64,000 nucleotides of DNA from Muscardinus avellanarius (taxonomy: Eukaryota; Chordata; Mammalia; Rodentia; Gliridae). The translations under genes were made by a program, and so were the position numbers. The notes beneath the pieces are model-generated. The model was not told the origin of the DNA. It did no database searches and saw only the letters and a list, made by a program, of their open reading frames with translations. The DNA lies in contig OY726569.1 of assembly GCA_963383645.1 (NCBI GenBank), forward strand, positions 31,329,592 through 31,393,591, given 5' to 3'. Positions 2,721 to 22,160 of this stretch are shown here, piece by piece (the stretch's first letter is position 1; every line of letters begins with the position of its first letter).

Positions 2721-3110
2721 CGTTCGTGAGTATTATGCTTAGTCAAATCTTAATATTAGGAGTTTAGGGGTATCAGCTAGTCAGCAGAGCCTTTCCAGAG
2801 TTGAGGGTGGGTGATGTGTGAGGAGCTGGGGTGATTGGTAAAGGAGTTGGATTAGGTAGAGGATATGTTTAGGTTGAGAAAGACTTTAAGTATGATAAGG
2901 TAATATCTTGCTAGGAATGAGAGAGAGAGTTAATTACTAGGACTCTTGTTGTTAGTAGAGTAATTATGGATATAAGGAGGTATATTATGGGGAAAAGTTT
3001 TGGGAGAGAAAAGTATGTAGGTTAGTGTGGGAAGGTTTGTAAATAGGGGTGATGGAAGGAGCAGATAGACATAAAAAAAAATCCACACAAGATACCAAGA
3101 CTATTATGTA
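2721..3110 (-). promoter_or_regulatory. L1 5' UTR, ORF1-proximal part
   Basis: Purine-rich, gene-free sequence between ORF1 of the minus-strand L1 and the point where element A interrupts it. Because the target duplication of element A (3097-3110) joins this stretch to 5885 onward, it and 5899-7630 were once continuous. It has no coding signal. Confidence 0.75.
3097..3110. repeat. Target-site duplication of element A, left copy
   Basis: The 14-mer AAGACTATTATGTA ends immediately before element A and recurs exactly at 5885-5898 immediately after its A-rich tail. This is the expected footprint of L1-type target-primed insertion. Confidence 0.92.
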
Positions 3111-3900
3111 GACTTCCGGGAAGATGTCGACCGAGAAAAGCGGGGCTTAAGAGCCCCGCTAACAACAAATATCCATTACCACAAAATCAGCGCCTTTCAA
3201 AGCCAGAAAACAACATCACCAGAGAAACAAAAAAAATCACCAGGCTCCAGAGAGAAAGCGGACTGAGAACAGAGCCACAGAGGAGATCCTCACGCCCGAG
3301 GACGCGGCAGACGCGGCAGACACGGCAGCAGCGCCATACTGCCGGAGGCTCCAGCGAATTCACGGGACGGCCACAGCAAGCCGAGGGGAGCCGCTGCGGA
3401 ACAGCCAGGCGGGATTTCTCGGCGCAGAGGACATCTAAAGCTACCAGTGTCTGAGCTCAGCACACGCTTCAGGGATTCAGAGTGGAAATCAAAACCAAGA
3501 AAAAAAAAACGCCAGCCAAACAGCCGAGGGCATAGCAGCGGCGCCATATTGCCACCGGCGGCAGCAGCACCGAATTCACTACAGCTACATCTGCGTACTC
3601 AAGAACAGTGAGTCAAATTGCGGGCCACAGTGGAGAAATCCCAGTACTGTACTCACTGGGACTTGACCCAGTGGGAGAGGGGCGGTGGCAGAGATATCAC
3701 ATCATAGGAGAATGTGCAACCTGGCACCCCCCACAGTCTAAAGCAGCCTCTATCGACTCTCTGGGTCGGAGACTCTGTGATACAACCCAGTAAAGGAATA
3801 GTGGGGTCTGAGATACTACTGACTCGAGATCCAGAACACCTTAAGGGAAGTCATAGTGACCCAAGGGAAGAACCCAGAGAAGGCACAAACTTCCGAAATC
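3111..3900 (+). promoter_or_regulatory. 5' UTR and likely internal promoter of copy A
   Basis: GC-rich leader with many CpGs, especially 3290-3600. The first bases, GACTTCCGGGAAGATG, contain an ETS-like core (CTTCCGG and its mirror) followed by an AAGATG that resembles a decayed YY1 site, a common start motif of L1 promoters. Copy B begins at the same nucleotide. The frame of ORF1 is open upstream to an ATG at 3856, but the family start is best placed at 3901. Confidence 0.7.
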
Positions 3901-4818
3901 ATGGGAAAGAGGAATAATACTGGAGCAATGAATGCCCACAACCCCACAACATCAGAACCCGATAAAACAGAGAATCAGAGATTTCTAGAAGATCAAATCA
4001 GGAAAATAACTGTAGAAATAATAGAGGTGCTTCGAAAAGAACTCAGAGAGAGCCAAAAAGAGATAAAGGATGCAATTAATGAAGTAAAGGCCTCAATTCA
4101 AAGCACAAACAACCGATTAGAACACATGGAGAACAGAATCTCGCTCTTAGAAGATGATCATTCCAAAAATGAACGCATAGTTTCTAATCTAGGAAAAAAT
4201 ATCCGACAGCAGGAATCTGATATTGAAGAAATATGGGCCCATTTTAAGAGAGCTAACCTAAGAATAATTGGAATAGAGGAGGGAAAAGAAAGTGAAACCA
4301 AAGGGATCAACAATCTCTTCAAGGAAGTAATAGCAGAAAATTTTTCAGACATAGAGCAAGAGGTCGATACGCAGGTCCAGGAAACTTATAGAACTCCCTT
4401 TAGACAGGATCGGAGAAGAGGATCCCCACGCCACATAATTGTCAAAATGACCAATGTGGAAGCCAAGCAGAGAATCTTAAAGGCAACAAAAGCAAAGGGC
4501 CAAGTGACATTCAGAGGCAAACCAATTAGAATCACTCCAGACTTCCCAAACCAAGTTATGAGAGCCAGAAGGGCTTGGAGTAACATATTCCAAATTCTGA
4601 AAGAAAACAACTTCCAGCCAAAAATTTCCTACCCAGCAAAACTTTCTTTCAAATTAGATGGAGAAATAAGAAGCTTCCATGACAAACAGAAACTGAAGGA
4701 ATTTATGTCTTCAAAACCAGCACTAGAGAAAATACTCAAAGAGATTAACTACAAAGAAGAAATAGGTAACACACATCAGAACCAGAGAAACAAGATTTTC
4801 CATTCAACAGACAACTAA
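3901..4818 (+). CDS. ORF1 protein of the composite LINE, 305 residues, intact
   Basis: RNA-binding chaperone of L1 type. I start it at MGKRNN (3901) because this matches the ORF1 start context in copy B. The frame opens further to 3856 but that part reads as 5' UTR. Residues about 27-120 are a coiled coil with regular hydrophobic spacing. The RRM begins at ANLRIIGIEEG (about 118-128). The C-terminal domain carries the ARR triplet at 222-224 and the conserved NNFQP and SYPAKLSF stretches. No stop or frameshift is present, while the flanking ORF2 remnant is badly decayed. It differs clearly from ORF1 of the host L1 at 1743-2720. An intact ORF1 without ORF2 is the hallmark of half-L1 elements. 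Confidence 0.93.
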   Translation: MGKRNNTGAMNAHNPTTSEPDKTENQRFLEDQIRKITVEIIEVLRKELRESQKEIKDAINEVKASIQSTNNRLEHMENRISLLEDDHSKNERIVSNLGKNIRQQESDIEEIWAHFKRANLRIIGIEEGKESETKGINNLFKEVIAENFSDIEQEVDTQVQETYRTPFRQDRRRGSPRHIIVKMTNVEAKQRILKATKAKGQVTFRGKPIRITPDFPNQVMRARRAWSNIFQILKENNFQPKISYPAKLSFKLDGEIRSFHDKQKLKEFMSSKPALEKILKEINYKEEIGNTHQNQRNKIFHSTDN

Positions 4819-4854
4819 GATTGGTTATCTGTGGAGATTCATTATTTATGTTAG

Positions 4855-5540
4855 TCTGTTACCTATCTCTAAAGGGTATTGTTTGCCTTTATTGTTGTTA
4901 ATTTTTAGGATTTCTAGTTGGAATATTAATATACCTTCAGATATAGCATTTGGAAATATTTTATCCCATTCTATTAGTAACTGTTAACTCTGTTTACATT
5001 GTCTTTGGATATACAATATGTTTTTTATTTTTTAGGGAGTTTGTATACTCTTCTGTTGCCTGTGCCATTGAAATCATAACCAAGAAATCACTGCCAATTT
5101 CAATGTTGTGAGGTTTTATGACCCAGATTTTCTCCTAAAAGTTTATAGTCTTAAGATTTATATTTAGGTCTTTTATCTATTTTGAGTTAATATTTGTATA
5201 TGGGATTAGGTAAGGGTCCAATTTTATTCTTTTCCATGTAATTATTATTTTTCAACAATATTTAGTTAAAAGATTATTATTTCTACCACCAAATGTTCGT
5301 GGAAATCTTGTCAAAAATAACTTGATAATATAGGGAAGAATTTAGGCCTAGGCTTTTATTTAACTACAATGGTTTATATATCTGCCTTTAGAATAGTACT
5401 ACACTGTTTCAATTATTGTAGCTTTATATGGTTTGAAATCAGAAAATATATATCTTCTAGCTTTGTTCTTTTTCAAGATCGTTGTGGGTACCTAGAGTCC
5501 ATATTCCATATTAGGATAGATTTTTTTTCTGAAAAATAAA
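4855..5540 (-). pseudogene. Inverted L1 ORF2 3'-region fragment inside copy A
   Basis: Read on the minus strand this is the C-terminal part of L1 ORF2. Landmarks include the stretch equivalent to AAAGACCTAAATATAAATC and the upstream FDK-type region near 5290. It carries many stops and codes for nothing on either strand. It lies antisense to ORF1 of the same element, about 35 bp after the ORF1 stop, and the same arrangement is seen in copy B. The boundaries are approximate because similarity to L1 was judged by eye. Confidence 0.8.
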
Positions 5541-5725
5541 TATATAAATATATGATAGTTTCACCTAAAAAATAGAAAAAAATAGATTCTCTGGTAAGAA
5601 AGAAAGCAAAAAGAAATATTGAAATGTTATCTTTAAGTCATCAAAAGCTTGGTATCAGACAAATGAAACTGTTATGTGATATTATCATTTTTAATTTTGG
5701 ATAAATTGCTATAATACTAGATGTC
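5541..5725. other. Segment of unknown origin in copy A
   Basis: AT-rich stretch between the inverted ORF2 piece and the L1 3' tail, shared with copy B (about 19361-19550). I could not match it to any L1 region, SINE or LTR I know. Confidence 0.55.
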
Positions 5726-5884
5726 AACTACTAAGCCAAGCATAGGAGGGGGGGATAGGGAGAGAACGGGGTGGGGATTGGGTGGGGGCTGACTGGGCAA
5801 TGTGTGCATGTATGTCTACAAAAGTATGTATCCCACTATGATGTATGAATACAGTGCACCTATTAAAAGTAAATATGGAAAAAA
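5726..5884 (+). other. L1 3' UTR end and A-rich tail of copy A
   Basis: Begins at CTAAGCCAAGCATAGG, passes a G-rich stretch and ends in an ATTAAA/A-rich tail. The same 3' end, usually as GCACCAATAAAA, is present at several truncated L1 ends here (14811, 29588, 37400, and antisense at 44745 and 45421). It would be the sequence recognised by L1 reverse transcriptase. Confidence 0.8.
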
Positions 5885-5898
5885 AAGACTATTATGTA
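5885..5898. repeat. Target-site duplication of element A, right copy
   Basis: Exact second copy of AAGACTATTATGTA. Host L1 5' UTR sequence resumes at 5899. Confidence 0.92.
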
Positions 5899-6035
5899 AT
5901 CCAAGAAAAAGGAAGGAATACCAATCAAAGGAGGAGAATGAAAAAAAGGAAGGAAAGAGGAAGAAAGAGGAAAAAAGAACAAGAATAAAATAAAAGGAGC
6001 CAGCAGCTGTGTGAAATAAAAAAATAAGGCAAACT

Positions 6036-6040
<5 letters not shown>

Positions 6041-6093
<53 letters not shown>
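6041..6093. repeat. (TA)n microsatellite
   Basis: About 26 uninterrupted TA units inside the L1 5' UTR. Length is likely to vary between individuals. Confidence 0.97.
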
Positions 6094-6094
<1 letters not shown>

Positions 6095-7616
6095 CAACAA
6101 GTTAAAGTAAAAGAAGTGTGGGTTAAAAGAAAAAAAATAAAACAGCAATAACCATACCAAAACAAAAGCACTGTAAAAGCAAAATAAAACAAAACATCCA
6201 CATTAAAAGTAAAACAAACAGTCCTCCTTATTTACGCATATGGGGTCAGGTCCATATAATATGTGTGTATCTGATTGTTTTGGTAGCTTTCAGAATACCA
6301 TCCAATGTCTCTTAGTTTTCTTTGTACTCCATTTTTATCTTCTTAGGTCACTCTGGGTGTTTGGACACCTTTCTCTCCTTTAGCTGCTTTAGGTTTATGT
6401 GTCCGTATGTCTGGTTTCACTGTTATTTGATTCTGTACAATTCACAGGTTCTGCAAAATTCTAAACTGTGGTCAGCACCTCTGCACTCACCACCCTAGAC
6501 TCCAGCCTGTGCTTCCCTACAGCAAGGGTGGAGAATGACCAAAGTATAATTGGAACCTCCCCCTGAGGTCCTGTGCAGATATTGTGGCCCGATGGATTTT
6601 CCTGTGTCTCTGGAAATTCCAGCTGGGCTAGCCAATGTGGTCCCAAGATGTACCCTGGGCAAAGGGATGCTGGTTCCTTGATGCCCACAGTTACTGCCAG
6701 AGCTCTGCCTATTCCGAGAGTGCAGGCTGGTGTGCTGGTATTACTGGACCCAGGTGTGAGTGGATGCAGCTATCTATTGCTGCTGGAATGTTCTTCCAAG
6801 GTGTATTGAGCTGTATTCTCACTTAGAACTAAGCATCTGGCTACCAGGAGGGTGGGAACACCCAGCAGTGGGCCAGGGGTGCAGGATAGGTGCTCAAGGA
6901 TCCAGTGCACAGTGTCCAGCAATGGTCTCTGCTTCCCACGGGATGTAGAAGCTGGGGGTGCCCCAAGGAGATTTCAGGGTCACACAGGGCTTTCGCAGCA
7001 TGGAAGGCAGGCTCTGGCAAGGTGGCGGGGGCTAGACACAAATGCAGGCTCCAATTTAGGGGTGGCAGTGGCACAGACACTGACTACTAGCAGGGGACCG
7101 GGCTGCAGACAAGGTGCGCGAGTAGAGTGCTCGGTTCTGAGGCTTGGGCCCGTGCTGGGGGGTTGGGGCTGTGCACATGTTAGGACCCCCACTTCCCTGG
7201 GCGCCCTCAGGTACCTGACTTCCTTGGTTCAGGATTCTATGGGAGTCTCTATGCTGTTGTGGTCCAGTCGCTGGTGAACACACAAAATTCTGACGTGGGT
7301 GCTGCTCGCTGCTTAAGATGAGGTCCTAAGTCCGTTTTCAGTCCTGGATTATCTTGCCGCGGTAATATCGGGCAGGCAGCTCTACAGGCAGCCACGAAAG
7401 CAGCCCACCGATCGGCATTCCAATCGGCATTCCGATTGTATCTGCAGCAGGTCCAGTGTCCGATCTTTGTTCTTCTTTTTCAAGTTCAGGGTTCCGCCGA
7501 GGTACCTGGATGTGTTTTGGTTCCTGGTATGTATTTATTTTGTTGATTAAGACACTGCTTTCTAAGTATTTGAACTTTATTTGCTTCAGCTACTGAGAAG
7601 TGCCGTGTCCCTCAGT

Positions 7617-7626
7617 CGCCATTTTG
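7617..7626 (-). promoter_or_regulatory. YY1-like site at the L1 5' end
   Basis: On the minus strand this reads CAAAATGGCG, a good match to the YY1 core, starting about 5 bases inside the presumed 5' end. In human L1 a YY1 site just after the first bases fixes the start of transcription. The same position and motif here support 7630 as the true 5' end. Confidence 0.6.
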
Positions 7627-7645
7627 AGAGAAAAAAAAAAAACCT

Positions 7646-8477
7646 GATGAAAGGATTTAAAACAAGTCTAGAGGAGATGAAAGATGAGTTGGAAACACTA
7701 AGAAAGAATCAGAAAGAGGTCTGGAATGAAATGAAAGAGTGGATAAGTGAAATGAAGACAGTAATAGAAAGAAATTCTGGAAGATTAGATGAAATGGAAA
7801 ACAGAATTTCATTGTTAGAAGACAGTACATCCAAAACCAAAAACACGATCAGTGATATACAGAAAGCTTTATAGCAACAAAACCTAAACATCCAGCAAAT
7901 ATGGAATAATATGAAGCATCCTAACTTACGGATAATAGGCATTGAAGAAGGGATAGAGATATAGACCAAGGGTATCCATAACCTCTTCAAAGAAATAATT
8001 TCAGAGAATTGCCTAACATGGAAAGAGACTTGGATCTTCATGTCCAGGAGGCATACAGAACTCCATTGAGATAGGACCAAAGAAGCACCTCCCCACACCA
8101 CATAATAGCCAAAATGACCAATATAGACACCAAGGAAGGAATCTTAAAAGCAGTGAGAACAAAAGGACAGGTGACATATAGAGGCAAAACAATAAGAATC
8201 ACCCCAGACTATACAACCCAGGTCAGGAATGCTAGGAGAGACTGGCACGATGTGATTCAGACTCTGAAAGAAAATAACTTCCAACCAAAACTACTCTATC
8301 CAGCAAAACTACTATTCAAAATCAATGGGGAAATAAAAGTATTTCAGGATAAACAGAATTTTTAAAAAATTTATGAATTCAAAGTCAATATTAGAGAAAA
8401 TTCTTAAAGAAATAAATCATAAAGAAGAAAAAAGAAGCAGACTTCAGAACCAGAGAAGAGAGGAAGTCCATAAGTAG
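7646..8477 (+). pseudogene. L1 ORF1 pseudogene of element C
   Basis: Closely related to ORF1 at 1743-2720, from about residue 46 (MKGFKTS) through the coiled coil, RRM and C-terminal domain to the stop at 8475. It is broken by in-frame stops near 7872 and 7963, a frameshift in about 8010-8070 that puts the region out of frame, and a further stop after KQNF near 8363. The ARR triplet is still readable (RNARRDW). It is not translatable. Confidence 0.9.
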
Positions 8478-8510
8478 AATGTGGATTACAGTAAGTGTCA
8501 GGACTAGTAG

Positions 8511-9588
8511 AACATTTAGTTTAATTTCTTATATGTGTTAGTTTTAGCTATGTTTAAAAGCTCGGAAAAGTGTTTTCATATCATATATATGTGCAATTAT
8601 GTTCAATTTCAGTGTATTGTAAGAGTTTCACATTGGTTTAGAATTAGAATTACAATTAGCGTTATGGCAAATATAACATTTAGTTTAGTTTCCTATATGT
8701 GTTAGTTTCAGCTATGTTTAAAAGCTTGGAAAAGTGTTTAACATGTCATATATATGTACAATTATGTTCAATTTCAGTATATTGTAAGACTTTCACATAT
8801 GTTTAGAATTAGGATTACAGTTAGCATTAGGATGAATATATCATTTAGTTTAGTTTCTTATATGTATTAGTTTCAGCTATATTCAGAAGCTCGGAAAAGT
8901 TTTTTACATATCATATATAAGTGAAATCATGTTCAATTTCAGTGTATTGTAAGAGTTTCACATATGTTTAGACATAGGAGTACAGTTAGCATTAGGATGA
9001 ATATAACATTTAGTTTAGTTTCTTATATGCGTTAGATTCAGCTATGTTTAAAAGCATGGAAAAGGGCTTTTCATATCATATGTATGTGAAATCATGTTCA
9101 ATTTCAGTGTATTGTAAGAGTGTCACATTTGTTTAGAATTAGGATTACAGTTAGTGTTAGGAAAAATATAACATTTAGTTTAATTTCTTATATGCATTAG
9201 TTTCTTATATGCTATGTTTAAAAGCTTGGAAAAGTGTTTTCATATCGTATATACGTGCAATTATGTTCAATTTCAGTGTATTGTAAGATTTTCCCATACG
9301 TTTAGAACTAGGATTACAGTTAGCATTAGGGCGAATATAACATTTAGGTTAGTTTCTTATATGCGTTAGTTTCAGCTATGTTTAAAAGCTCGGAAAAGTG
9401 TTTTACATGTCATATATATGTGAAATCATGTTCAATTTTAGTATATTGTAAGAGTTTCACATATGTTTAGAATTAGGATTACAATTAGCGTTAGGACTAA
9501 TATATCATTTAGTTTAGTTTCTTATATGCATTAGTTTCAGCTATGTTTAAAAGCTCAGAAAAGTGTTTTATATATCATATATATGTGC
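8511..9588 (+). repeat. 165-bp tandem repeat, about 6.6 copies
   Basis: Units start at 8511, 8675, 8840, 9005, 9170, 9339 and 9504, all beginning AACATTTAGTTTAGTTTC or a near variant. Spacings are 164-165 bp with one of 169. Copies differ by scattered substitutions. The array starts about 34 bp after the ORF1 stop of element C. It is AT-rich and has no coding frame. I do not recognise it as a named satellite. Confidence 0.93.
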
Positions 9589-10329
9589 CAAGGGAAAATC
9601 AATAAATTAATAAAAAATAAATAAATTTTCTGAAGAAAAAAAAATGTACCTGCCTCTTGAAGCATATAGAAGGTTGTTGGAGTATTCTGTCTCCTTTTAA
9701 CCATATAGGAAATTTGTGATAATGTTAAAAAGTTAAAAAACATAGATTCCTAATTTAGAATTATTTCATATATTGCATACTGTTAGAGGATAACGCTCTT
9801 CTTACCAAAGAAAAATAATTAAAAACAAGTAAAAATGAGTAAAGAGAAGGAATGATAAAGATAAGAATAGATAAAAAAAGTAAGAGCTATATTTGTTGCT
9901 GTAACAAAAGTCAGAAAAAACAAATAGAACATACTTTTGGTGAAGATAGAAAATGTAAAAATAACAATGATGAAAGGTAAAAAGAGAACAAGTGGACAAT
10001 AGATGCAATAATTTAGTAGAAGGATAGGAAAGAGACTCCTCCATGAGCAGTGCTTCTGCTGCTCTCTGTGTGTGGTTGTGTTCCTGGTCAACGAGACTGT
10101 ACCCCTGGCATTTGTGCTATGATCAAGTCTCTTCATGTCCAGTGGCTCCTGAGCATGTTCTCTTAGAGACCTTCAGCCCTTCAACTCCACATGTCCAACA
10201 CACCAGTCACCTCCAGTTTCTCCCTGCTCCAGGCTCAGGCACACTTGCATGTGCATGCTGACATTTGCTTTTCTCCTATTCCCTGTCCTGCTTAGTGCCA
10301 CCTGAACAATCATTCAAGTCACACCCTTT
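9589..10329. other. Unassigned interval, possibly L1 5' UTR-like
   Basis: A purine-rich half (about 9780-10030) followed by a more GC-rich half (10030-10260). This composition recalls the minus-strand L1 5' UTR at 5899-6600, but I could not align the two with confidence. No gene is seen. The short open frames here lack any recognisable domain. Confidence 0.4.
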
Positions 10330-14199: not shown

Positions 14200-14340
14200 C
14201 CAACAACAACAACAAGCAGCAGAGTGAAGAAACAAACTATAGAATGAGATAAAATATTTACAAACTATGTATCTGGCAAGGGGTTAATTTAATTTAAAGA
14301 ATGCATAAGAAAATAAAATCAACAATACAGAAACATTATT

Positions 14341-14530: not shown

Positions 14531-14810
14531 GAAACAATATTATTTTAAGAAGAGGAATAGACTTAAATAGAATTGTCTCAAAGGAAGAGATACAAATAAC
14601 AGGTTTATGAAAAAAATGCTAACATCACCTATCTTTAGGGAAGTGTAAAAATTACAATATTATCTCACTCCAGTTAAAATGGCTATTATCACAAACATAT
14701 AAAGTAAACAAGTGCTGGAAAGGATGCAGAGGAAAGGGAATCCTTGAACACTGTTAGTGGGAATGTAAATTAGTGCAGCCATTGTAGAAGACAGTGTGGA
14801 GATTCTGAGG

Positions 14811-14932
14811 GAATGGGGTGGGGACTAGGTAAGGGCTGATTGGGTAATGTGTGCATGTATGTCTCCACCATCTTGTACTCCATCAATATGTATGACTATA
14901 ATGCACCAATAAAACATTTAAAAAATCTACCA
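14811..14932 (+). mobile_element. Very short L1 3' tail insertion of the A/B type
   Basis: About 120 bp matching the 3' UTR tail of copies A and B: GGGGTGGGGACTAGG, then GGGTAATGTGTGCATGTATG, ending in GCACCAATAAAAC. It interrupts the ancient L1 between GGAGATTCTGAG and CTACCATATGG. No clear target duplication is visible. Confidence 0.75.
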
Positions 14933-18789: not shown

Positions 18790-19184
18790 TTATTTCTGAT
18801 TTTTATCATTTGGGTCTACTTTTTTTTTATTCAGTCTAGAAAAAGTTTCATCCAACTTGTTTTTTTTTTTTTTTTTTTTTTTACAAAGAACATGTTTGGG
18901 CTTTACTGATATTCTCTTTGCTTTTTCCACTTTCTATTTTATTTTTCACTTGAATCTGTTATTTCTATTAGCCTTGAGTTTAGTTTACTTTTTTCTATTC
19001 TCTATACCATAAGGTATATAGTTAGATTATTGAGATATTTTTCTTTAATATATACAGGCTTACTAGTAATTTTCTCTGAACACTTCATATGCCTTATCCT
19101 CCAAATTTTGGCATGTTTATATTCTAGTTTATTGCAAAGAATTTTCTAACTTCCCTCTGACTTCTTCATTGACCCATTGGCTTT
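18790..19184 (-). mobile_element. Ancient L1 ORF2, antisense, left part
   Basis: Minus-strand ORF2 endonuclease/linker region. CTTCCCTCTGACTTCTTCAT then TGACCCATTGG is the familiar antisense L1 text, and it continues at 22161 after copy B. A 23-T run lies at about 18860-18882. Confidence 0.75.
19173..19184. repeat. Target-site duplication of copy B, left copy
   Basis: CCCATTGGCTTT, repeated exactly at 22149-22160. The duplicated bases belong to the ancient L1 that was hit. Confidence 0.88.
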
Positions 19185-19545
19185 ATAATTTTTTATTTTA
19201 TTTTATTTATTTTATTTGTGCACTGTATTCATACATCATAATGGGATAAAAGTAATACTTTTGTAGACATACATGCACACATTGCCCAGTTAGCCCCTAC
19301 CCAATCCCCACCCCGTTCCCTCCCAATGCCTCTTTCCTATGCTTGGCTTAGTGGTTGACATCTAGTATTATAACAATTTATCCAATATTAACATTGATAA
19401 TCTCACATAACAGTTTCATTTGTCTGATACCAAACTTTTGATGAATTAAAGATAACATTTCAATATTTCTTTTTGCTTTCTTTCTTACCAGAGAATATTT
19501 CTTTCTTTTTCTTTTTTAAGGTGAAACTATCATATATTTATTTAT

Positions 19546-20235
19546 TTATTTTTCACAAAAAATTTATCCTAATATGGAATATGGACTCTAGATACCCAAA
19601 ATGATCTCGAAAAAGAACAAAGCTAGAAGATGTATATTTTCTGATTTCAAACCATATAAAGCTACAATAATTGAAACAGTGTTGTACTGTTCTAAAGGCA
19701 GATATATAAACCATTAGAGTTAAATAAAAGCCTAGAGATAAATTCTTCCATATACTGTCAAGTTATTTTTGACAAGGTTTCCACGAACATTTGGTGGAGG
19801 AAATATAATAATCTTTTAACTAAATATTGTTGAAAAATGATAATTACATGAAAAAGAATAAAACTGGACCCTTACCTAACACCATATACAAATATTAACT
19901 CAAAATATATAAAAGACCTAAATATAAATCTTAAGACTATAAACTTTTAGAAGAAAATCTGGGTCATAAAATCTCACAACATTGAAATTGGCAGTGATTT
20001 CTTGGATATGATTTCAGTGTCACAGGCAACAGAAGGGTAAACAAACTCCCTAAAAAATAAAAGCATATTGTATATACAAAGACAATGTAAACAGAGTTAA
20101 AAGTTACTGATAGAATGGGATAAAATATTTCCAAATGCTATATATGAAGGTATATTAGTATTCCAACTAGAAATCCTAAAAATTAGCAACAATAAAAGCA
20201 AACAATACAATTTAGAGATAGGGAAAAGACTAACA
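19546..20235 (+). pseudogene. Inverted L1 ORF2 fragment inside copy B
   Basis: Plus-strand ORF2 C-terminal text (for example CAAATATTAACTCAAAATAT, then AAAAGACCTAAATATAAATC), antisense to the element. It matches the inverted piece at 4855-5540 and is full of stops. Confidence 0.8.
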
Positions 20236-20265
20236 TAAATAATGAATCTCCACAGATAACCAATC

Positions 20266-21179
20266 TTAATTGTCTGTTGGATGGAAAATCTTGTTTCTCT
20301 GGTTCTGGTGTGAGTTACCTATTTCTTCTTTGTAGTTAATCTCTTTGAGTATTTTCTCTAGTGCTGGTTTTGAAGACATAAATTCGTTCAGTTTCTGTTT
20401 GTCGTGGAAGTTTCTTATTTCCCCATCTAATTTGATAGAAAGTTTTGCTGGGTAGGAAATTTTTGGCTGGAAGTTGTTTTCTTTCAGAGTTTGGAATATG
20501 TTACTCCAAGCCCTTCTGGCTCTCATGACTTGGTTTGGGAAGTCTGGAGTGATTCTAATTGGTTTGCCTCTGAATGTCACTTGGCCCTTTGTTTTTGTTG
20601 CCTTTAAGATTCTCTGCTTGGCTTCTACATTGGTCATTTTGACAATTATGTGGCGTGGGGATCCTCTTCTCTGATCCTGTCTAAAGGGAGTTCTATAAGT
20701 TTTCTCGACCTGTGTATTGACCTCTTGCTCTATGTTTGGAAAATTTTCTGCTATTACTTCCTTGAAGAGATTGTTGATCCCTTTGGTTTTACCTTCTTTT
20801 CCCTCCTCTATTCCAATTATTCTTAGGTTAGCTCTATTAAAATGGGCCCATATTTCTTCAATGTCAGATTCCTGCTGTCGGATTTTTTTTCTAAATTAGA
20901 AACTATGCGTTCATTTTTTGAATGATCTTCTAAAATCAAGATTCTATTCTCCATGTGGTCTAGTTGGTTGTTTGTACTTTGAATTGTGGCCTTTAGTTCA
21001 TTAATTGCATCCTTTATCTCTTTTTGGCTCTCTCTGAATTCTTTTTGAAACACCTCTATTATTTCTACAGTTATTTTCCTGATTTGATCTTCTAGAAATC
21101 TCTGAATTTCTGTTTTATCTGGTTCTGATGTTGTGGGGTTGTGGGCATTCATTGCTCCATTGTTATTCCTTTTTCCCAT
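20266..21179 (-). pseudogene. ORF1 of copy B, one frameshift
   Basis: The same ORF1 lineage as 3901-4818. The N-terminal half, including the start MGKRNN at 21179 and the coiled coil, and the C-terminal half with RRM, ARR triplet and NNFQPKISYPAKLS are both readable. They are in different frames because of a 1-bp deletion in an A-run near 20885-20895. One codon is also missing in the LLEDD region. Otherwise the frame is open, so inactivation looks recent. Confidence 0.92.
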
Positions 21180-22148
21180 GATTTCAGAAGTTTGTGCCTT
21201 CTCTTGGTTCTTCCCTTGGGTCACTACCACTTCACTTAAGGTGCTCTGGGTTTCGAATCTGTGATATCTTGGTCCCCACTACTCCTTTACTGGGTTGTAT
21301 GGCAGAGTCTCAGACCCAGGGAGTCAATCGAGGCTGCTTTAGACCATGGGGGGTGCCAGGTTGGGCGTTCTCCTATGGTGTGATATCTCTGCCACTGCCA
21401 CTCCCCCACTGGGTCAAGTCCCTGGGAGTCAGTACTGGGATTTCTCCTCCAAGGCCCGCAATTTGACTCACTGTTGTTGAGTGCCCAGATGTAGCTGTAG
21501 TGGACTCAGTGAATTTGCTGCTGCTGCCGCCGTTGGCAATATGGCACTGCTGCCACGCCCTTGGCCGTGAGGCTGGCATATTTCTTCTCTGGTTTTGAGC
21601 TCCACTCTGAGTCCCTGAAGGGTGTGCTGAGCCCAGCCACTAGGAGCTTTAGATGCTCCCTGCGCTGAGAAATCTGCCGAATCCCGTCAGGCTGTTCCGC
21701 AGCGGCTCACCTTGGCACGCTGCCCACCGCTCCTCTCTGGAGCCTGGTGGGCTGTTGAGTGTGTTGGTCTGTAGCTTAGCTGTCCAGTGAACTCGCCGCT
21801 GCCGCCCGCAGTAAGGCGCTGCTGCTGCGTCCTCAGCCGTGAGGCCAGCGTATCTCCTCTGTAGCTCTGAGCTCCGTTATGAGTTCCCTTCCTCTCTGGA
21901 GCCTGGTGCTGCAAGGGAAAATGGCGCCCGCCGCTTCGTGCTGTGGCGCCGGCTGCAGCACTGTGGTCTGGTTTCTGGTGTCTCATTTTTCCAGCCCTCT
22001 TTTTCTCTGTCTCTTGTAATTACATTTTTTGTTTCTCTGCTGATGGTGTTTTCTGGCTATGAAAGGCACTGATTTTGTGGTAATAGAGATTGGTTGTTAG
22101 CAGGGCTCGTAAGCCCCACTTTCCTCCATTGCCATCTTCCTGGAAGTC
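21180..22148 (-). promoter_or_regulatory. 5' UTR of copy B
   Basis: GC-rich leader, about 180 bp longer than in copy A. The extra length lies in the CpG-rich part (about 21640-22020). On the minus strand it starts GACTTCCAGGAAGATGGC, so the YY1-like AAGATGGC is better kept here than in copy A. Confidence 0.65.
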
Positions 22149-22160
22149 CCCATTGGCTTT
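22149..22160. repeat. Target-site duplication of copy B, right copy
   Basis: Second CCCATTGGCTTT, directly after the element's first base. Confidence 0.88.

Follow-up and report, generated by a model that had tools for sequence, protein, structure and literature searches.

A probable HAL1-type L1 derivative with an antisense ORF2 fragment in its middle, found in two copies in a 64-kb window of Muscardinus avellanarius DNA

HAL1 (half-L1) retrotransposons were reportedly described by Smit in 1999 and by Bao and Jurka in 2010. In this study we analysed a stretch of 64 kb from Muscardinus avellanarius (contig OY726569.1, positions 31,329,592 to 31,393,591), hereafter called the window, which has a G+C content of 37%. 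It contains two copies of a composite L1 element that carries the first open reading frame (ORF1) of L1 and only an antisense, stop-riddled piece of the second (ORF2); copy A lies at 3111-5884 on the plus strand and copy B at 22148-19185 on the minus strand. We propose, with a probability of roughly 0.78, that this composite is a non-autonomous, HAL1-type L1 derivative, in which RNA from a source locus would use its own ORF1 protein (ORF1p) in cis and the ORF2 protein (ORF2p) of another L1 in trans.

HAL1 elements are L1 derivatives that encode ORF1p only and have several independent origins (PMC5753468). In the guinea pig the coding capacity of HAL1 ORF1 was retained for approx. 29-44 million years, which was read there as a need for both ORF1p in cis and ORF2p in trans (PMC3627910). 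Marmoset and guinea pig, but not squirrel, are the hosts given for HAL1 in a tabulation of young families (PMC3183009). Quiescence of long and short interspersed elements in ground squirrel is cited by PMC5857283, and a helper L1 may therefore be no longer active in some hosts. Among the listed matches of a search in open-licence literature there was no paper on squirrel HAL1 and none on any derivative of L1 whose middle is inverted.

Like HAL1, the composite is derived from L1, encodes ORF1p only, is bounded by target site duplications (TSDs), ends in an A-rich tail, may have an ORF1 under constraint, judged by one pair of copies, and presumably depends on ORF2p in trans. It may differ in its middle, an antisense ORF2 piece followed by a segment without assigned origin. 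Twin-primed L1 insertions consist of two inverted fragments of one L1 between TSDs (PMC2837659). As in these, ORF2 of the composite is antisense and is followed by the 3' end of an L1 in sense orientation, but in both of its independent insertions the inverted part is internal, following the 5' untranslated region (UTR) and ORF1 and not starting at the TSD. In the chimeric insertions catalogued by Law and Burns (2026, PMC13174262) the L1 machinery likewise joins unrelated RNAs, and these insertions offer a precedent for re-copying; unlike the composite they come from a human-lineage catalogue and are not ORF1-only, and HAL1 is named nowhere in the available text. At the founding locus of Tceal7 (PMC7586669) HAL1b ORF1 sequence lies beside an inverted L1ME piece, as in the composite, but this is a single domesticated locus formed by two nearby insertions and not a mobile unit. 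The chimeric L1 of PMC6500023 was not used as a precedent, because the authors had generated and inserted it themselves.

Two insertions of one structure

The two copies lie in opposite orientation approx. 13 kb apart. BLAST aligned 3374-5875 of copy A with 21722-19204 of copy B at 90.9% identity over 2531 aligned columns, and 3111-3265 with 22148-21992 at 82.3% identity over 158 columns. In the full pairwise alignment the order and the junctions agreed throughout, from 5' UTR over ORF1, antisense L1 ORF2 piece and further segment to the L1 3' tail, and the first nucleotides were GACTTCC in both copies. The common order, the shared start and the matching internal junctions had been proposed in an earlier model reading of the letters (the sequence-only reading) and were confirmed by these alignments.

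Copy A is bounded by the exact 14-mer AAGACTATTATGTA, found at 3097-3110 and again at 5885-5898 (plus strand). Copy B is bounded by an exact 12-mer, AAAGCCAATGGG on the minus strand, at 22149-22160 on its 5' side and 19173-19184 on its 3' side. Either word occurs exactly twice in the window, both strands counted. The distinct duplications of 14 and 12 bp given by the sequence-only reading are exact. Both copies thus carry the marks of target-primed reverse transcription, namely a TSD, an A-rich tail and a defined 5' end. The insertion site of copy B (CTTAAAAAGCC) fits the TT/AAAA motif well, and better than that of copy A does.

The 2-kb flanks of A and B did not match in register. Among the flank hits listed, the sole one with E below 1e-5 (112 columns, 69% identity, E 3e-7) was in opposite orientation and out of place. 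Because the two TSDs are exact and different and the flanks have no in-register match, we concluded that A and B are two full-length, independent retrotransposition events of one RNA structure. The alternative that one locus was duplicated by segmental duplication or gene conversion, and not by retrotransposition, would suit two oppositely oriented copies at a distance of no more than 13 kb. The sequence-only reading had itself named segmental duplication with shared flanks as the rival to examine; homology was found not to extend beyond the element, the exact TSDs of the two copies are different and the flanks are unmatched in register. Segmental duplication was therefore rejected, and we regard this alternative as extremely improbable. 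The own TSDs and unmatched flanks also bear out the earlier claim that an ORF1-only, HAL1-like L1 derivative was copied as a unit by retrotransposition.

No third copy of the middle (4817-5740) was found in the window, where matches beyond A and B were limited to 37 bp of ORF2-like sequence (14239-14275) and two AT-rich matches of 22 bp. A scan of the whole window against Rfam at gathering thresholds gave no matches.

ORF1, 5' UTR and relatives

ORF1 of copy A (3901-4818, plus strand) is open and encodes 305 amino acids with the domains PF02994 (L1 ORF1p RRM) and PF17490 (C-terminal domain). Its counterpart in copy B was placed by alignment to A at 20266-21179 (minus strand). Over 303 codons the two differ by 18 synonymous and 28 replacement changes, corresponding to a ratio of replacement to synonymous rates (dN/dS) of 0.37 (Fisher P 0.002). 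In a neutral simulation with 46 changes, the probability of 28 or fewer replacements was 0.001-0.043 across eight settings, which were combinations of transition bias and CpG rate. The 5' UTR of copy A (3111-3900, plus strand) is L1-like, with a G+C content of 54% and a CpG observed/expected ratio of 0.70; that of copy B, placed by alignment to A at 21180-22148 (minus strand), has a ratio of 0.43, and the window 0.21.

In the mechanism we propose, a source locus would yield an RNA that starts with an L1-like promoter and 5' UTR, is translated over ORF1, has a non-coding middle with the old antisense ORF2 piece and ends in a polyadenylated L1 3' tail. The ORF1p translated from the composite RNA would coat that RNA in cis, and the endonuclease and reverse transcriptase of an autonomous L1 would act in trans, producing full-length copies by target-primed reverse transcription. 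Transcription, translation, the action of ORF1p in cis and of ORF2p in trans, and the existence of more copies are what we infer, and movement in trans would be a reasonable expectation. Having kept ORF1 and given up the enzyme, HAL1 elements offer a natural test of the cis role of L1 ORF1p. A composite in which antisense DNA and DNA without assigned origin separate ORF1 and the 5' UTR from approx. the final 150 bp of L1 would narrow down what an L1 RNA needs for mobilisation.

Some observations weigh against this reading. The copies seen are two, within a 64-kb window, and the insertion site of copy A (CC/AAGA) fits the TT/AAAA motif poorly. ORF1 of copy B is broken by a 1-bp frameshift plus a 3-bp deletion, and the bias against replacement in the A/B ORF1 differences is modest and comes from one pair with 46 differences. 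With CpG sites left out, the Kimura two-parameter divergence between A and B was 4.2% in ORF1, 6.4% in the antisense ORF2, 8.3% in the segment 5531-5722, 10% in the tail and 13% in the 5' UTR. Divergence in the 5' UTR is thus approx. double that of the non-coding middle (Fisher P 0.0002, or 0.001 on 3400-3900), a value that misalignment in this indel-rich region may inflate. In addition the 5' UTR of copy B is approx. 180 bp longer, chiefly through insertions of 113 and 54 columns, with smaller differences besides. Given this divergence and the extra sequence in B, the two copies may not derive from one single source sequence, or 5' UTRs may have been exchanged.

The differences between 3111-3900 and 22148-21180 point to subfamilies or 5' UTR exchange.

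A further alternative is that one rare chimeric transcript was inserted twice by chance, with neither selection on ORF1 nor a lasting family. Two copies are known in the window and ORF1 of copy B is broken, as this would allow. Two of 17 chimeras between mRNA and L1 share sequence and stem from independent target-primed events (PMC13174262), and chimeric RNA can therefore insert twice without founding a family. Both copies, however, are full-length and share their 5' end, replacement changes are under-represented, and the large 5' UTR differences imply a longer history than that of two sister insertions. We consider two chance insertions improbable.

A protein search for relatives of ORF1, of which the best 120 of 1995 matches were listed, was the basis of two trees. 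Among these 120 the nearest named proteins by identity to ORF1 of copy A were from Sciurus vulgaris and Marmota (51-54%) and Spermophilus dauricus (49%). The squirrel-family ORF1 matches were outscored, over more residues, by two proteins of the bat Cnephaeus nilssonii (38% and 40%). The first tree had 22 rows, comprising 20 listed proteins and two ORF1s of the window, and was built without the better-scoring bat proteins P0002, P0004 and P0007 (36-37% identical). The second tree had 29 rows and added these three as well as P0015, P0016, P0018 and P0019. ORF1 of copy A formed a clade of four rows with P0001, P0003 and P0020, with a support of 100/99 in the 22-row tree and 100/98 in the 29-row tree. 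These three proteins are encoded on contigs of 1.1-2.7 kb and may come from ORF1-only elements or from full L1s.

The sister of this clade (100/99 with 22 rows, 100/98 with 29 rows) consisted of P0012 and the ORF1 of another L1 in the window. This sister L1 lies on the minus strand, with an open ORF1 of 325 amino acids at 2720-1743 and an ORF2 running from approx. 1655 to the window edge at position 1, in which an endonuclease match (PF14529) was found. Its ORF1 is 52% identical to that of copy A, and its first named match was Sciurus vulgaris (50%); it is the nearest ORF1 lineage seen with ORF2 attached. Apart from both stood a seven-row clade made up of P0005, P0006, P0008-P0011 and P0013, with a support of 100/99 in the 29-row tree; six of its rows bear the names Sciurus, Marmota or Spermophilus. 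The clade of copy A, its sister and the seven-row clade were all kept in the larger tree.

A pattern search for ORF1 relatives gave 6 matches on viral contigs and 24 on genome contigs, none of them encoding a relative; as these collections are viral and prokaryotic, the result has little weight. The same limit holds for the DNA patterns of the first junction and of the segment 5531-5722, both searched in viral contigs, and of the sequence just past the junction, searched in genome contigs, which gave 0 matches each.

The antisense middle and its origin

From 4819 to approx. 5530 the reverse strand of copy A reads as L1 ORF2, and the corresponding fragment of copy B reads as ORF2 on the plus strand at 19555-20265. 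Stop-free pieces of copy B matched human L1 ORF2p at residues 946-974 (E 1.2e-8) and, weakly, at residues 860-896 (E 0.53); a third stop-free piece, of 45 amino acids, had no match. The matching pieces follow the order to be expected of an inverted segment, and the same pieces are present in copy A. By extrapolation we place the outer limits at approx. residues 855 and 1080 in human numbering. In the 224 codons read, 8 in-frame stops are common to A and B, 2 are found only in A and 3 only in B. A frame change is also common to both copies. The neutral change before the split of A and B amounted to approx. 10% when scaled by the private stops, and to approx. 21-33% when scaled by the 1.7-2.6 stops per 46 changes seen in the ORF1 simulation; both estimates are rough and presuppose the anchored reading frames. 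The 8 shared stops and the shared frame change place the decay of the antisense ORF2 before the split of A and B. We concluded that it was dead well before the copies parted, either captured as a fossil or decayed in a long-lived composite lineage.

Between the antisense ORF2 and the sense tail lies a segment of approx. 190 bp common to both copies (5531-5722 on the plus strand of copy A, with an A-rich stretch near 5565-5595; 19361-19554 on the minus strand in copy B, by alignment to A). For the copy A segment the only matches in the window were copy B and two AT-rich hits of 22 bp. The L1 3' tail of copy A, with a G-rich tract, a polyadenylation signal and an A-rich end, lies at 5723-5884 (plus strand), and that of copy B, placed by alignment and by other L1 tails, at 19185-19360 (minus strand). 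Compared with other L1 3' ends of the window, the tail from approx. 5723 had an identity of 65-75% in three cases and of 50-53% in a fourth, where the relationship is more distant. Since the resemblance to two of the window L1 tails includes a few bases before position 5723, similarity may begin near 5700 and the boundary is soft (approx. 5700-5723).

Elsewhere in the window, at 14801-14915 (plus strand), lies an L1 3' tail of approx. 110 bp, a ready-made sense polyadenylation unit of the kind needed for a read-through origin. Its surroundings look like older L1 ORF2, a tentative assignment; the 37-bp ORF2-like match is at 14239-14275.

For the origin of the middle, we suggest that the transcript or locus of an ORF1-bearing L1 would have been joined at the ORF1 stop to downstream DNA that carried a fossil L1 fragment in antisense and ended with a short L1 3' tail in sense orientation. 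The cut at the ORF1 stop may have been made by deletion, splicing or RNA/template switching, with the short tail providing the poly(A) site. The decay of the ORF2 piece is common to both copies, DNA without assigned origin lies between the two L1 parts, and a short L1 3' tail inside apparent old L1 ORF2 is present in the window at 14801-14915. Moreover, the sister L1 reads TAA and then GTAAAG at its ORF1 stop, which places a donor-like word at the break; because the break is at this stop, the donor-like GTAAAG may have been spliced to DNA further downstream. Chance alone, however, often puts a GT at any one position, the window showed no empty or pre-capture locus, and the ORF2 piece could instead have decayed after capture in a long-lived composite lineage. 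We give this origin about an even chance.

The sequence-only reading had suggested read-through of an ORF1-bearing L1 transcript into a twin-primed L1. In the form considered here, a contemporary twin-primed L1 would have supplied the 3' half after inserting in or downstream of an ORF1-bearing L1, and the copies would have inherited its inversion. Twin priming produces the order seen here, in which ORF2 in antisense precedes an L1 3' end in sense (PMC2837659, PMC13174262), extra 'filler' sequence is mentioned in PMC2837659, and the few bases upstream of the tail that resemble two other L1 3' ends are also in its favour. The order thus fits the earlier suggestion, but two findings argue against a contemporary twin-primed L1 as source of the tail: approx. 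190 bp without assigned origin separate the two L1 parts, and the 8 in-frame stops and the frame change, which predate the A/B split, mean that the ORF2 piece was long dead. A captured antisense L1 fossil accounts for the gap and the shared decay at least as well as twin priming, for which we consider the case doubtful.

Two unrelated ORF1-only structures, the composite with its break at 4818/4819 and a second structure at 7643-9640, lie within one 7-kb part of the window. ORF1-only L1 derivatives might arise time and again when an L1 is broken at its ORF1 stop or next to it, for example through splicing from a donor-like GT at this place to any sequence downstream, and the products might persist as ORF1 lineages, although we regard such a general route as rather unlikely.

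The two junctions of the composite are clean markers for counting and dating copies and for asking how such elements arise. For annotation some caution is advisable, as we expect that a repeat masker may overlook the composite as a unit and annotate three pieces instead, namely the 5' end of an L1, an old L1 in antisense and the 3' end of an L1.

Neighbouring L1 sequences

A CpG-rich region at 7000-7627, with AAAATGGCGAC at its end, is a candidate 5' UTR of the sister L1, whose 5' end perhaps lies near 7627. If so, copy A would have inserted into the 5' UTR of the sister L1.

The second ORF1-only structure at 7643-9640 (plus strand) contains a 5'-truncated, broken ORF1 with stops and frame changes, 89% identical to 2584-1754 and hence of the sister L1 lineage. 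No ORF2 was seen in it, and a comparison of 5891-7660 with 9541-9760 found no common word of at least 9 bp as a TSD, A-rich and low-complexity words being left out. Near its stop, this ORF1 runs straight into a tandem repeat of 165 bp with 6.7 copies (8475-9587), followed by an A/T-rich end.

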